Shown: positions 7,020 through 28,832 of the stretch, in pieces
Position numbering within the stretch: the first letter of the stretch is position 1
Layout: every line of letters starts with the position of its first letter
Origin: Candidatus Saccharimonadota bacterium
GTDB taxonomy: Bacteria > Patescibacteriota > Saccharimonadia > Saccharimonadales > Saccharimonadaceae
Assembly (NCBI GenBank): GCA_016286785.1
Contig: JAEEUB010000008.1
Span: forward strand, 1 to 38,745
Length of the DNA stretch: 38,745 nt
Direction of reading: 5' to 3'
The notes under the pieces: model-generated
What the model saw: the letters and a program-made list of their open reading frames with translations, nothing else
Database searches by the model: none
Told to the model about the DNA's origin: nothing
Program-made: the position numbers and the translations under genes

Positions 7020-8168
7020 ATGATTTATCTTGATCATGCAGCAGCTACACCTATCTCTAAAAAAGTCCTCAAAAAAATGGAGCCTTATTTTTTGCATGAT
7101 TTCTTTAACCCATCCGCAGCTTATATGCCCGCAAAAAAAGTAAACGCCAAATACGAAGCCGCCAAAGCCAGCATAGCACATACGATAGGAGCCAAATCAT
7201 CCGATCTAATTATTACCGCAGGAGCAACTGAGGCAAACAATCTAGCATTTACCGCCATAAAAAAACCTCAGGGCGCAAAAAAGGTTCTTTATCTAGAAAC
7301 TGAACATGATTCGGTCCGACAAATAGCCCAAAAATATGGTGGTGAAAAAATCAAAGTTCATAGTAGCGGAATCATCGATCTAAATGATCTAAAAAACAAA
7401 ATTACAGACGAAACGGAACTCATATCAATTGCGCTAGTAAATAATGAAATTGGCACAATTCAGCCCTTAGCCGAAGTGTCGGCAATTATTCGTGACGTTA
7501 AAATCCAAAGATTAAAGAAAGGGATAAAAACCAAATTATTGCTCCATTCAGACGCATCACAAGCGCTTAATCTAATAGACATCAATGTGGCCCGTCTCGG
7601 CATAGACCTTCTTACCATGAATTCGGCAAAAGTGTATGGACCAAAAGGAGTAGGCGCTCTATACGTTTCGCATGATGCCAAACTAAATCCCATAATCCTA
7701 GGTGGAGGTCAAGAAAATGGCTTAAGGAGTGGGACGGAAAACGTTCCAGGAGTAATAGGATTCGCCGAAGCTCTAGAAGAAGCAAAAAAACACCTAGCAT
7801 CAAACCGCAAAAAATACGCCACCTGGAAAAAGGTATTATTAAAAGAGCTACACGATTATGAGCTCATCAACAAAAAGCATACACTTGACAACTTTATAGT
7901 TATATGCTATAATAGAATAGATGCGGAAAGATTAATCTTTCTTCTTGAAGAAAAAGACGTTTATGTCTCTACTGGGGCCGCCTGCGCTGCTTCTAAGGGG
8001 GTACGTTCACACGTACTAAAAGCTATCGGCTTATCTGATACTCAAATTGCTGGATCGCTCAGAATAACCCTTGGTGAAACCAATGATGAATCCCAGATTA
8101 AAAAAGCAGCCAAGATTATTAACGAAGTAGTAGAAAAAGAGCGGGAGAGAATTAAAAATGCCGGCTAA
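7020..8168 (+). CDS. iscS: Cysteine desulfurase (IscS/NifS family)
   Basis: A 382-aa PLP enzyme that takes sulfur from cysteine as a persulfide. Visible elements: LDHAAATP at the N-terminus, GATEANN (68-74), cofactor-stacking His96, NNEIGTIQP (141-149), PLP-binding Asp178 in HSDAS, Schiff-base Lys204 in NSAKVYGPKGVGAL, GLRSGTENV (234-242), and the sulfur-carrying loop STGAACAAS with Cys322. The residue before the PLP lysine is Ala, where E. coli IscS and NifS have His. The last 11 nt overlap mnmA, and no scaffold gene (iscU) is adjacent. The main partner is therefore probably MnmA for tRNA thiolation, although iron-sulfur assembly is possible. Confidence 0.94.
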   Translation: MIYLDHAAATPISKKVLKKMEPYFLHDFFNPSAAYMPAKKVNAKYEAAKASIAHTIGAKSSDLIITAGATEANNLAFTAIKKPQGAKKVLYLETEHDSVRQIAQKYGGEKIKVHSSGIIDLNDLKNKITDETELISIALVNNEIGTIQPLAEVSAIIRDVKIQRLKKGIKTKLLLHSDASQALNLIDINVARLGIDLLTMNSAKVYGPKGVGALYVSHDAKLNPIILGGGQENGLRSGTENVPGVIGFAEALEEAKKHLASNRKKYATWKKVLLKELHDYELINKKHTLDNFIVICYNRIDAERLIFLLEEKDVYVSTGAACAASKGVRSHVLKAIGLSDTQIAGSLRITLGETNDESQIKKAAKIINEVVEKERERIKNAG

Positions 8169-9261
8169 AACCCACCCTAGTAAGAATCCTAAAACCGTAT
8201 TTGTCGGCATGAGCGGCGGCGTAGATTCAAGTGTGTCTGCTATGCTCCTAAAAAACCAAGGTTATAAGGTCGTAGGTATCTATATGAAAAACTGGTCCGA
8301 GGATTTACCAGGCATGAAATGTCCTTGGGCAGAAGACCTTGCAGATGCCAAAAGAGTTGCGGTTAAGCTCGGCATAGATTTTGAAGTTTGGGATTTTGAA
8401 AAAGAATATAAAAAACGGGTTGTAGATTACATGCTAAATGAATTTAAGGCCGGCAACACTCCTAACCCAGACATCATGTGTAACCAAGAAATTAAATTCA
8501 AACTATTTTACGAGAAAGCCATGTCGGCCGGAGCAGACTATATCGCTACTGGGCATTATGCCAGAATTAAAACCATCTCAAATCATCCTGCCCTCCTAAG
8601 AGGAATCGACGAGAAAAAAGATCAAACGTATTTCCTCTATCGCATTTCAGAAGAATCCTTAGCTCATACAATTTTCCCAATTGGCGAGATGACAAAACCA
8701 GAAGTCAAAAAATTAGCAGAAGAAAATGGCTTACACAACGCATATAAAAAAGAATCGATGGGCGTTTGCTTTATTGGAGAAGTCGGTATAAAAGATTTCC
8801 TCAAAGAATACATCGACATTAACCCCGGCGAAATTCGCGAAATCGAAAGTAATAACATTTTGGGATACCATGAAGGCGTAATTTTTTATACAATAGGCCA
8901 ACGGCATGGATTATATCTTAATGGCGAAAAAGGCAAAATTAATGACGGCATGCCTTATTATGTTGTCAAAAAGGATATCAAAAACAACATTATTTATGTG
9001 TCAAAAAACTTAAATCACGAAGCAATCTGGACCAAAACTTTAGAGTTAAAGGATATTCTCCTTCGCTCGTCCAAATTAATTCTAAATCCAGCCAAAAACT
9101 ATCCGGTTATGGTTCGCCTTCGTCACTTAGCACCTCTTGTGCCAGCCACAATAAACGGCAAATTCCTAACGTTCAAAGAAGAAATAAAGAGACCAGCACC
9201 AGGCCAATCTGCCGTTTTGTACGAAGACGAAGAATGCCTGGGCGGTGGCATTATTTGCTAA
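8158..9261 (+). CDS. mnmA: tRNA-specific 2-thiouridylase
   Basis: A 367-aa enzyme that adds the 2-thio group to U34 of Glu, Gln and Lys tRNAs using ATP and persulfide sulfur. The PP-loop SGGVDSS is at 19-25, catalytic Cys108 is in NPDIMCNQEIKF, TGHYARI is at 131-137, KDQTYFLYR at 154-162, and the second catalytic Cys204 is in GVCFIGE. The C-terminal beta-barrel region follows. The ATG at 8158 lies inside the end of the desulfurase gene, with GGGAGAG (8143-8149) 8 nt upstream. A sulfur donor and acceptor encoded with an 11-nt overlap strongly suggest a dedicated relay. The TAA stop abuts the foreign AT-rich island. Confidence 0.96.
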   Translation: MPAKTHPSKNPKTVFVGMSGGVDSSVSAMLLKNQGYKVVGIYMKNWSEDLPGMKCPWAEDLADAKRVAVKLGIDFEVWDFEKEYKKRVVDYMLNEFKAGNTPNPDIMCNQEIKFKLFYEKAMSAGADYIATGHYARIKTISNHPALLRGIDEKKDQTYFLYRISEESLAHTIFPIGEMTKPEVKKLAEENGLHNAYKKESMGVCFIGEVGIKDFLKEYIDINPGEIREIESNNILGYHEGVIFYTIGQRHGLYLNGEKGKINDGMPYYVVKKDIKNNIIYVSKNLNHEAIWTKTLELKDILLRSSKLILNPAKNYPVMVRLRHLAPLVPATINGKFLTFKEEIKRPAPGQSAVLYEDEECLGGGIIC

Positions 9262-9312
9262 AAAAATACTCCCGAAGAGAGAACTTAAATAAGGACAAAA
9301 TTGTTCTTATTT
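9261..9312. repeat. Left end of the island: candidate terminal inverted repeat with hairpin
   Basis: AAAAAATACTCC (9261-9272) is followed after 15 nt by a near-palindrome, AAATAAG-G-ACAA-AA-TTGT-T-CTTATTT (9287-9312). Both parts recur inverted at the right end. The first A is the last base of the mnmA TAA stop. Confidence 0.6.
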
Positions 9313-9408
9313 GGTTCTTCCTTATTTTATTGGTACTTTAATAGCTTGATATGGTATAAAATTTTAATTCATTTTGTAGCGAAAATAAATTTTAGGAGGT
9401 TTTTAGTT

Positions 9409-9618
9409 ATGAGAGATATAACTTATCATAAAGAAGGAGATTATTATATTCCTGACTTATATTTAGCTGAGGATGAATACGAAAAAAATTATCATATTGG
9501 AAAGTATGGTCATTTAAGACTATCCTATTTAAAAAAACATAAGAAATCTGATTATATTATAATGCTTATGGACGGAACTTTAAGAAAACATATTGTAGTC
9601 TTTTATTATTTACTATAA
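9409..9618 (+). pseudogene. TnpV-like transposon protein, C-terminally truncated
   Basis: A 69-aa reading frame from the ATG at 9409 with Shine-Dalgarno AGGAGG (9394-9399). It begins MRDITYHKEGDYYIPDL and continues IGKYGHLRLSYLKKHKKSDY and LRKHI, the pattern I recognise from TnpV-family proteins of clostridial transposons (YTKxGDYYIPxL, IGKYGxxRxxYLxEH). Full-length relatives are roughly 110-120 aa. Here the match ends at about residue 61, followed by an unrelated hydrophobic end (VVFYYLL), so the 3' part is lost. A longer reading upstream from 9301 has no family resemblance and lacks a ribosome site. The molecular role of TnpV is not well defined. It serves here as a marker of the element's origin. 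Confidence 0.7.
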
Positions 9619-9639
9619 AATTGTTTTTCATTCGTTATA

Positions 9640-10401
9640 TTAATCTTTAAAAATCCATATATAATCTTCTCGTTTTGTTAATTTTTTGTTTCCATTTGCA
9701 ATGTTTAATATTTTATTTCTTATATCATTAATTTCATCTGATGAAATATTTACAAATTGTTCATGTTTAAAAAATTCAATTATTGTTTTACCATTTTCAT
9801 TCATGTTTTCTATTCCAGAGATATCTATATCTGAATTGACTATTTCCACTTCATATTTTACATTTTTCTTAGATAATATTTTTTTTATATTCGTTGATAG
9901 TGTGTCTTTATTATTGTATTTTTTTAAACTATCTGTTACTTTTTTATCATCACTATAATCGTTACTTACCACTATCAAAGCTATTCCTTTAGTATTTAGT
10001 GATTTTATGACTTTATCTAAAAAACTTTCTAAATTTTCAATATAACATACTACATGAGCTATTAAAATAAAATCTGATTTTGGTAATTTATCCAAAGATT
10101 CTACATTCCTATTTATAAAATTAATGTCATGATTTGTTCTTGATTTAAAGCATTTTATTAGTTCAGTAGATGTTTCTATACCAGTAACTTCAAGTTGGTA
10201 TGATTCACCTAATTTTTCTATAATTTGAGTCGTAACAACACCATCCGCACATCCAATATCAAGTAACATTAATTTTTTTGAAGTGTTATTTTCTAAAATT
10301 TTTTTACATACCTTGTTAATTAATATTGGTTTTTGATTTGTTAGTGCAATGTACCTCTGAAATATTGATGGGTTTTCTCTATATATTTTTAAATTATGCA
10401 T
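9640..10401 (-). CDS. Class I SAM-dependent methyltransferase (island cargo)
   Basis: A 253-aa Rossmann-fold methyltransferase. Motif I is LLDIGCADG (residues about 46-54), followed by an acidic residue after strand 2 (GIET), the strand 4 segment SDFILIAHVVCYI, and the post-motif GIALIVVSND. The substrate is unknown. It has an AAGGAG Shine-Dalgarno sequence 9 nt upstream of the ATG at 10401 and a promoter with a symmetrical operator-like dyad. Codon use is extremely AT-rich, matching the island and not the resident genes. It is the only apparently intact gene in the island, so it may be retained cargo, perhaps a small-molecule or antibiotic-modifying methylase (speculative). Confidence 0.82.
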   Translation of the reverse strand: MHNLKIYRENPSIFQRYIALTNQKPILINKVCKKILENNTSKKLMLLDIGCADGVVTTQIIEKLGESYQLEVTGIETSTELIKCFKSRTNHDINFINRNVESLDKLPKSDFILIAHVVCYIENLESFLDKVIKSLNTKGIALIVVSNDYSDDKKVTDSLKKYNNKDTLSTNIKKILSKKNVKYEVEIVNSDIDISGIENMNENGKTIIEFFKHEQFVNISSDEINDIRNKILNIANGNKKLTKREDYIWIFKD

Positions 10402-10434
10402 CTTTATTATCTCCTTTTCTTCTTGTAAAATTAT

Positions 10435-10462
10435 ATTATAAAATTACAATTAAACTGTAATT
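10435..10462 (-). promoter_or_regulatory. Methyltransferase promoter with operator-like dyad
   Basis: On the minus strand, a TATAAT box (10440-10435) lies directly downstream of a perfect dyad: AATTACA (10442-10448), 7 nt, TGTAATT (10456-10462). No good -35 is visible. A dyad placed in the -35/-10 spacer with a weak -35 is typical of MerR-type activation, but other repressors could bind here. No regulator gene remains in the island. Confidence 0.45.
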
Positions 10463-10472
10463 AATATTAATA

Positions 10473-10698
10473 CTATTTTTTTACTCCAAATGCAGGTACA
10501 TTAATAGTAACAGCTTCAAAATCTCCTTCAGCAGAATAGATTGTATTTTTATCCAAATACAATACATCTCCACTGTCACAATGGACTTTTTGATTATCTA
10601 TTATAAAGCTAACATCTGCACTAATAAAGTATATCTGCTGAATGCACTTCACTAATTTTTCTTGTAATTTTTTCATTATTTGATATTTTCTTATACAT
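10473..10698 (-). pseudogene. Small cupin-domain protein, frameshifted
   Basis: The downstream frame encodes a cupin-like beta-barrel piece (VSFIIDNQKVHCDSGDVLYL, then TIYSAEGDFEAVTINVP). Its only ATG in that frame (10676) has no ribosome site. The proper start is the ATG at 10698 with AGGAGG (10710-10705) 6 nt upstream. From it the frame reads MYKKISNNEKITRKISEVHSADILY and stops at TAG (10623-10621). A one-base shift near 10621-10632 would join the two parts into a protein of about 75 aa. I therefore read it as a frameshift-inactivated cupin gene. Cupin function is usually small-molecule or metal binding, and none can be assigned here. Sequencing error at an AT-rich site is an alternative. 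Confidence 0.62.
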
Positions 10699-10797
10699 AT
10701 TCTACCTCCTAAAATTACTATTTTTCTTCATTAAACTTGCACGAAATATTACAAAGCTCTACACTAATACATTTAACAAATTATTTCTTCTTTTTAA

Positions 10798-11001
10798 ATT
10801 TTTTACCTTCAATTACCAGAAATAATAAATGAATTAATTGATAAAATATTAGTCCACCAACAAACAAAAGTTGATGGAAAGAAATATCAACAAATAGATA
10901 TATATTACTCAGAAGTTGGAATTATATCAGTTTCAGCAAATGAATATGATTTTGAAAAAGAATTTCAAAATATGTTAAAAGATAAAATAAAAACAGCATA
11001 A
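10798..11001 (+). pseudogene. C-terminal remnant of a large serine recombinase
   Basis: A 67-codon open frame without a start, following a stop at 10795. It encodes PEIINELIDKILVH, then QQTKVDGKKYQQIDIYY, and ends at TAA (10999-11001). This resembles the extreme C-terminus of clostridial large serine recombinases (TnpX/DUF4368 type), where a strand pattern like ELIDKIxVH is followed by GKxxQxIxIYY. The catalytic serine domain is absent. In Tn4451-like elements the recombinase lies near one end, which fits its position next to the right inverted repeat. It is non-functional as it stands. Confidence 0.6.
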
Positions 11002-11010
11002 AAAAAGCCT

Positions 11011-11069
11011 TAGGAGCATTTTTAATAAGAATTGTCCTTATTAAAATGCTCCTAGGAGTATTTTTTTTT
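11011..11069. terminator. Long hairpin and T-run at the right end of the island
   Basis: An 18-bp stem with one bulge (11011-11029 with 11037-11054, loop AATTGTC) is followed by GGAGTA and nine T. It should terminate rightward transcription. Its inner part and the GGAGTATTTTTT end also match the island's left end in inverted orientation, so it doubles as the right terminal repeat. Confidence 0.7.
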
Positions 11070-11079
11070 ATTTAAGATT

Positions 11080-11283
11080 CTACACAATCATCATAACCGC
11101 GTTAGCGCATAAAAGAGCGCCAGCTACGATAGCCATTGCTGAAATGGCATAGATATGCATCTTTTCAGCCTGAGTGACGCACTGCTTTTTAGTGGTCTTC
11201 ATGCATGCTTTGCGATGAGCCTGCTGTGGCCTCGAAGTAGATTTTTTTGTTCTTGTGGCTTGTTTCTTTTTTGCTTGTGCCAT
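11080..11283 (-). CDS. Small basic single-TM protein
   Basis: A 67-aa protein of unknown function. The first 43 residues are strongly basic (Lys/Arg/Gln/Thr-rich, MAQAKKKQATRTKKSTSR), and the C-terminal 22 residues form a hydrophobic helix (IYAISAMAIVAGALLCANAV). The likely topology is a basic cytoplasmic N-terminus anchored by a tail helix, and the basic part could bind nucleic acid (inference). I chose the ATG at 11283 because an AAGGA site precedes it and because the longer upstream reading (to 11376) would overlap the alaS start and adds unlike sequence. It is divergent from alaS. Base composition matches the resident genome, so it lies outside the island. Confidence 0.6.
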   Translation of the reverse strand: MAQAKKKQATRTKKSTSRPQQAHRKACMKTTKKQCVTQAEKMHIYAISAMAIVAGALLCANAVMMIV

Positions 11284-28298: not shown

Positions 28299-28832
28299 AT
28301 GTATTATCAAGATGAAGCCGATCGCAAAGAGCGTCGCAAAATCATTACCGTAGCCACCGTTGCAGTGATTTTGATTTTACTTTTAATCATTGCCATCATC
28401 GTGGTTGCAACCAAAAAATCAAGTAAAGCTAACAATACCGAATCAAACAATACGATACAGGTTGTAGAAGATAGCAATAAGACGAACAATTCCTCGTCCA
28501 GTTCCAATAATTCTTCCAATAACAATAACTCAAACAGCTCAAGTAATTCAAGTAATTCAAGCAATTCGAGTAATTCAAGCAATTCTAATAGCTCGAGCAG
28601 TTCTAGCAATTCCAGTAATTCTAGTAGTAGCTCTAGTAGCTCATCCAGTAAATCGGAATCATCGAGTTCGTCTAGTTCTAACAAAAACAGTGCCGCTACC
28701 GCTTCTAGCGATTCGCCAATGCCGAGCACTGGCCCAGAAGAAGCTTTACCAGTTGCACTAATACTTGGCCTATTAACAACGTATGCCGGTTCTGCTATTC
28801 TAGCAAAAAGAAACGCTTACAAGAATCAATAA
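28299..28832 (+). CDS. Ser/Asn-rich surface protein with PSTG-type sorting signal
   Basis: A 177-aa low-complexity protein. Residues 1-14 are charged, and 15-38 form a hydrophobic helix (IITVATVAVILILLLIIAII). Residues 40-135 are almost entirely Ser and Asn. The C-terminus carries MPSTGPEE, then a hydrophobic helix (ALPVALILGLLTTYAGSAIL) and a basic end (AKRNAYKNQ), the layout of a sortase-type cell-wall sorting signal with MPSTG in place of LPXTG. Two membrane segments could also make a loop anchored at both ends. It has a full promoter and a good Shine-Dalgarno sequence. Possible roles are a flexible spacer or mucin-like coat (inference). It is transcribed toward the tRNA-Leu gene. Confidence 0.8.
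   Translation: MYYQDEADRKERRKIITVATVAVILILLLIIAIIVVATKKSSKANNTESNNTIQVVEDSNKTNNSSSSSNNSSNNNNSNSSSNSSNSSNSSNSSNSNSSSSSSNSSNSSSSSSSSSSKSESSSSSSSNKNSAATASSDSPMPSTGPEEALPVALILGLLTTYAGSAILAKRNAYKNQ
28491..28681. repeat. Degenerate 9-bp repeat array encoding the Ser/Asn linker
   Basis: Variants of AGTAATTCA/AGCAATTCG recur in frame through this stretch, with a purer block at about 28539-28585. In-frame units of 9 bp allow linker-length changes by slippage. Confidence 0.7.

Follow-up and report, generated by a model that had tools for sequence, protein, structure and literature searches.

The window analysed here is a stretch of 38,745 nucleotides from a Candidatus Saccharimonadota (CPR) genome of 766,527 bases, whose size and related genomes are in keeping with CPR. 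The interval between mnmA (8158-9261) and a small gene convergent with it (11080-11283, minus strand) contains a block with 21-25% GC across 9301-11100; elsewhere in the window GC is about 35-50%. The initial annotation had described this block as very AT-rich, which it is, and had let it begin with the final base of the mnmA stop codon; the start lies further downstream, bases 9262-9275 being resident and the element beginning at about 9277. The insertion occupies 9277-11052 (1776 bp, ~1.78 kb), 15 bp 3' of mnmA. It derives from a Tn4451-type mobilizable transposon (TnpV/TnpX, the latter a DUF4368 large serine recombinase), of which it is a non-autonomous copy with an internal deletion. The transposon family is already known, and the window copy is a non-autonomous variant of it. 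The convergent gene reads as a small lysine-rich membrane protein, and a similar gene is found at the same place in several relatives. The features of the locus are the following.

9260-9272, plus strand: resident DNA, 5' arm of the split mnmA terminator (AAAAAAATACTCC); the joined empty site folds as a hairpin
9277-11052, plus strand: non-autonomous Tn4451-type element; ends aligned to L037, L041, L086-L088 and L003
9278-9324, plus strand: left terminal sequence and hairpin (AGAGAACTTAAATAAGGACAAAATTGTTCTTATTTGGTTCTTCC; family consensus GGGAGAACTTAAATAAGGACAAAAT); fold -19.4 kcal/mol, z -4.2
9409-9618, plus strand: tnpV, N-terminal half only; PF14198, E=1e-14, profile positions 1-55 of 111
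9640-10401, minus strand: cargo, class I SAM-dependent methyltransferase, 253 aa, uninterrupted frame; E=6.7e-12
10473-10708, minus strand: cargo, small cupin-like gene, frameshifted (two frames), weak assignment; Cupin_3, E=0.22, below the cut-off
10813-11001, plus strand: tnpX remnant, last ~61 aa (DUF4368); PF14287, E=9.4e-14, profile positions 30-66 of 67
11002-11052, plus strand: right terminal sequence and hairpin (..TTGTCCTTATTAAAATGCTCC), an inverted repeat of the left tip; fold -27.7 kcal/mol, z -6.5
11055-11069, plus strand: resident DNA, 3' arm and T-run of the split terminator (GGAGTATTTTTTTTT); joined fold, with a hairpin in nine relatives

The truncated TnpV and the C-terminal stub of a serine recombinase that had been read from the sequence are both confirmed by the Pfam matches. 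The tnpV product in the window has 69 aa and is at most 90% identical to clostridial TnpV; homology to the element family stops near 9598, so that of a tnpV near one end, as an autonomous element carries it, about 63 codons remain. The tnpX stub is 98% identical over 61 aa to the C-terminus of a clostridial TnpX (L087). Full TnpX, with catalytic, recombinase and DUF4368 domains, is found in the relatives L041, L087 and L003; in the window only the last ~61 aa of it remain. No reading frame matching Mob_Pre/TnpZ or TnpW occurs within 9277-11052, and both are present in L041. Both ends of the parent family are retained while the parent genes are deleted inside, as in a non-autonomous Tn4451-type derivative, and both halves of the target are kept beside the element. 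The earlier term "remnant" says too little: what is left is a delimited non-autonomous element with its two terminal sequences and its target halves. Apart from the right-end palindrome, which matches itself, no second copy of the element was found in the host genome.

A BLASTN search of plasmid records matched one family. The left 320 bp are 78% identical to a sequence in IncHI2 plasmids that is annotated TnpV, and the right part is 80% identical at the DNA level to the end of the IncHI2 recombinase gene; the tips match. This Tn4451-like relative (pD610-HI2, L003) carries tnpV, aac(6')-Ie-aph(2'')-Ia, mob, tnpW and a DUF4368 recombinase gene. Its limits are set by the empty site in R478 (GACCGTTTAGAGCG), against which the junctions of L003 are TT/TT. 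It differs from the window copy in that it is full length, bears resistance cargo and lies in a plasmid gene, not in a terminator.

Closer relatives are found in Clostridia. A scan of GTDB genome contigs for the left tip gave 21 loci, mostly in MAGs titled Clostridia, Clostridiales, Clostridium or Lachnospiraceae. The copies in small-genome Clostridia MAGs are 92% identical to the window element over the left 320 bp and 97% over the right 238 bp, so the comparison with Tn4451-type elements that the initial annotation had proposed bore out the kinship it expected. One of the loci, L041, is a complete 6.5-kb element encoding TnpV, Mob_Pre, TnpW and a TnpX with Resolvase, Recombinase, Zn-ribbon and DUF4368 domains. 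Short forms exist as well. L037 is a clostridial mini-element of 1.28 kb whose tips are 100% identical to those of the window element over 36 and 52 bp, and L121 is a 3.0-kb clostridial copy with the same tips. The L037 mini-element (L037:6560-7842) encodes a single cargo protein of 212 aa with no Pfam match at E<=0.01. Another clostridial element, L088 (G698:C28:42400-50200), measures 7.07 kb and has the same tips and a terminator target; TnpX was not found in it, and its cargo reads by eye as putative UvrA-like and RarA-like proteins, an ATPase and an HxlR-like regulator.

With Tn4451 and Tn4453 of Clostridium (TnpX, TnpV, TnpW, TnpZ), the window copy shares the TnpV and TnpX (DUF4368) pieces, terminal inverted repeats and a small target dinucleotide, while its full-length relatives share the element layout. 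It differs from them in being devoid of the catalytic part of the recombinase, of mob and of tnpW, and its relatives differ in having AA/TA or TT by their ends and in sitting in terminator loops. The target dinucleotide of Tn4451 is GA. A GA core may be read in the window, as 9277-9278 paired with 11056-11057; a GA core as in Tn4451 is unsupported by the R478 empty site. The dinucleotides adjoining the window element are AA on the left and TA on the right, and since these differ the exact crossover position is not fixed. MITEs and other non-autonomous elements likewise keep their ends, have lost the recombinase and are presumably moved in trans; unlike them, the window element carries genes as cargo, and its movement would require a large serine recombinase.

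The methyltransferase had been predicted to be intact and is so. The only relative found for it is a full-length protein, 50% identical over 250 aa, from the clostridial genome G861. An exact 8-mer scan of GTDB genome contigs for this gene was empty, and it was a later whole-genome search that gave this one relative. The latter (L152; G861:C37, 5930-6695, minus strand) is chromosomal, beside a YlqF-like GTPase, and not on an element. No methyltransferase relative was detected in the 294 other genomes of the host's family (at E<=1e-10), by tblastn among 72,556 plasmids, or in viral sequences, and the sequence has no resemblance to those of solved structures. The cargo of the window element was not found on the clostridial copies in any of the loci compared, the middle 1.2 kb being without a DNA match; its methyltransferase function is putative. 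As for the second cargo gene, the predicted frameshift is real, while its identification as a cupin is weak. The claim of strong AGGAGG ribosome sites stands in part: each of the three island genes, and seven of the 24 resident genes checked, has AGGAG or GGAGG upstream, but AGGAGG itself is present at two of the three island sites.

The insertion target escaped the initial annotation. The resident bases 9262-9275 and those from 11055 on are the two halves of a terminator. Joined in the inferred empty site, the arms AAAAAAATACTCC and GGAGTATTTTTTT give a 12-bp stem, a 4-nt loop and a T-run. A hairpin lies directly 3' of mnmA in nine relatives of the host, mostly with an A-run and a T-run. The comparison with unoccupied relatives that had been suggested earlier thus yielded the hairpin but not the exact empty site, for which these relatives are too distant (best mnmA identity 77-80%), and the empty site of the window is inferred from its flanks. 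Since the split arms join into a hairpin like the one that relatives have at the same place, the insertion splits the intrinsic terminator of mnmA within its loop.

The same junctions bear on whether clostridial sequence was artificially joined to a CPR contig during assembly or binning. The assembly is of the metagenome type, with 25 contigs and 4.06% estimated contamination, which leaves room for such a chimera. Both junctions, however, fall exactly at terminal sequences that were defined independently in Clostridia and in the IncHI2 plasmid, and the flanks join into one terminator hairpin like that of the nine relatives. An artificial join would not break precisely at the two tips with the matching target halves still in place; we therefore regard a chimera as very improbable. 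The block is, with high confidence, a cargo-carrying mini-derivative of a Tn4451-type transposon from small-genome gut Clostridia, integrated in a CPR terminator loop.

Of 295 genomes of the host's family, 1 has the left tip of the element; in the clostridial order to which the genome of L041 belongs, the tip occurs in 38 of 385. Of 380 genomes in the host's phylum, the window's own is the one in which TnpV exceeds the cut-off. Because the tip and TnpV are nearly absent from the host's group and the tip is far more frequent in the clostridial order, the sequences point to Clostridia, or a shared third party, as the source, and to Clostridia-to-CPR as the direction of transfer. The earlier proposal of gene flow from a distant phylum is upheld by these counts, together with the 92-97% identity of the ends to clostridial elements. 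It had left the setting at mouth or gut; several titles of donor-type MAGs name animal gut material (rumen, reticulum, cecum), which makes the gut more likely and the mouth less so. A phage origin was rejected, the element tip having no copy in viral contigs and the methyltransferase no viral relative. A plasmid origin of the cargo was rejected as well, given the empty tblastn result among the 72,556 plasmids. A PF07508 recombinase is absent from the host genome, so that the copy is probably immobile in its present host. At this locus a mobile element passed recently and cleanly from Clostridia to a reduced genome of the CPR type, a setting otherwise nearly devoid of such genes.

The following scheme would account for the element. 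An autonomous ancestor would have carried tnpV, cargo, mob, tnpW and tnpX. A deletion would have removed the stretch from about codon 63 of tnpV to the last ~61 codons of tnpX, where the methyltransferase and the cupin-like gene now lie. With its terminal recombination sites retained, the mini-element could be excised as a circle by the TnpX of a full element and then integrated. The short clostridial copies with the same tips (L037, L121) suggest such mobilization in trans. A role in excision has been suggested for TnpV (PMC3158075). The element may have reached the CPR genome by uptake or by conjugation, and serine-recombinase exchange would then have occurred at a loop dinucleotide of the terminator shared by the convergent mnmA and 11080-11283 genes. 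The recipient being without such a recombinase, the element would now be fixed. Since its end hairpins fold strongly and the resident T-run follows the right one, the element's own hairpins may take over termination, which may thus be restored.

The deletion could instead have followed insertion: a full element would have entered first and then been deleted internally in the CPR host, the decaying remnant never having been mobile as a mini-element. Both tnpV and tnpX are truncated and the cupin frame is broken, which speaks for this order; the element's ends are nevertheless still 92-97% identical to those of clostridial copies, and short copies exist in Clostridia. We consider such a history rather unlikely as an account of the locus. 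Regarding the order of events as such, there is one copy only, and the chance that deletion preceded transfer is no lower than that of deletion in the host. If cargo-only mini-elements do move between hosts, they would explain how single genes cross gut phyla with no recombinase left behind.

Terminator targeting appears to be a habit of the family. For 17 insertions a left end could be matched with its right end; 3 of them, from a subfamily that uses a fixed coding target, were set aside, leaving 14. A site was scored as a terminator if a stem of 11 or more pairs, 2 or more of them GC, spanned the junction, preceded by an A-run and followed by a T-run. This was the case for 11 of the 14 paired sites, whereas random positions qualify at 0.18% in the clostridial loci, 0.11% in the window and 0.22% at AT-rich positions. 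Among positions of the clostridial loci with A5, AA and T5, 4.5% qualify. The binomial P against this 4.5% null is 5e-13 (2e-11 with the coding-site subfamily counted), but as the rule was fixed after the first examples had been seen, weight should be placed on the effect size rather than on exact P-values. In a swapped-flank test, the total folding energy of the true left/right pairing was never matched in 20,000 permutations. The three exceptions are L003, in its plasmid gene, L139 and L148. The joining of L092 and L091 as one insertion was rejected, as their flanks do not match. The coding-site subfamily (eight loci) sits at one fixed site (..NGETADDIAKRKG..), and its TnpX, as represented by L137, is 68-76% identical to TnpX of terminator-targeting elements.

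DUF4368 large serine recombinases are multi-targeting, and the site of one of them, Cp36, is A-rich / AA / T-rich (PMC10083194). Terminators are unmentioned in that paper (0 occurrences; PMC10083194). The TnpX of the window element's relatives resembles Cp36 in domain content and in its many-site target of the same type, but the native sites of the element family are mostly intrinsic terminators. TnpX might accordingly seek an A-rich / AA / T-rich sequence that terminators merely supply, with no role for the hairpin. To this we give a little under an even chance. A recombinase of the same clade has just that motif (PMC10083194), and many of the sites have A-runs on the left and T-runs on the right. 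The motif fits a bidirectional terminator, but alone it predicts hairpins at a few percent of sites, and hairpins of the observed quality, seen in 11 of 14 insertions, occur at 4.5% of A-run/AA/T-run sites; moreover, inner stem bases beyond the runs also pair. Selection against insertions elsewhere could still contribute to the bias. A precedent for stem-loop targets is IS1272, an IS with a DDE transposase, which targets inverted-repeat stem-loops of varying sequence (PMC5678879). It differs in that it replaces the target repeat, while the window element leaves both arms and belongs to a serine recombinase family.

We put forward, tentatively and as a somewhat doubtful generalization, that intrinsic terminators have become general safe-harbour targets for a TnpX clade in the course of its evolution: integration would take place in the loop, both arms would be left, and the end hairpins would restore termination on both sides. 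Terminators being present in most bacterial phyla, elements and cargo-only mini-elements could then settle in distant hosts, CPR included. No description of terminator targeting by TnpX-type/DUF4368 recombinases was found in the open-access literature searched; as far as found, the habit is thus undescribed for recombinases that now serve as genome-integration tools, and it is directly testable. Elsewhere in the window, 28299-28832 encodes a protein, probably a surface protein, that has a long Ser/Asn repeat stretch and a C-terminal end resembling a membrane anchor.
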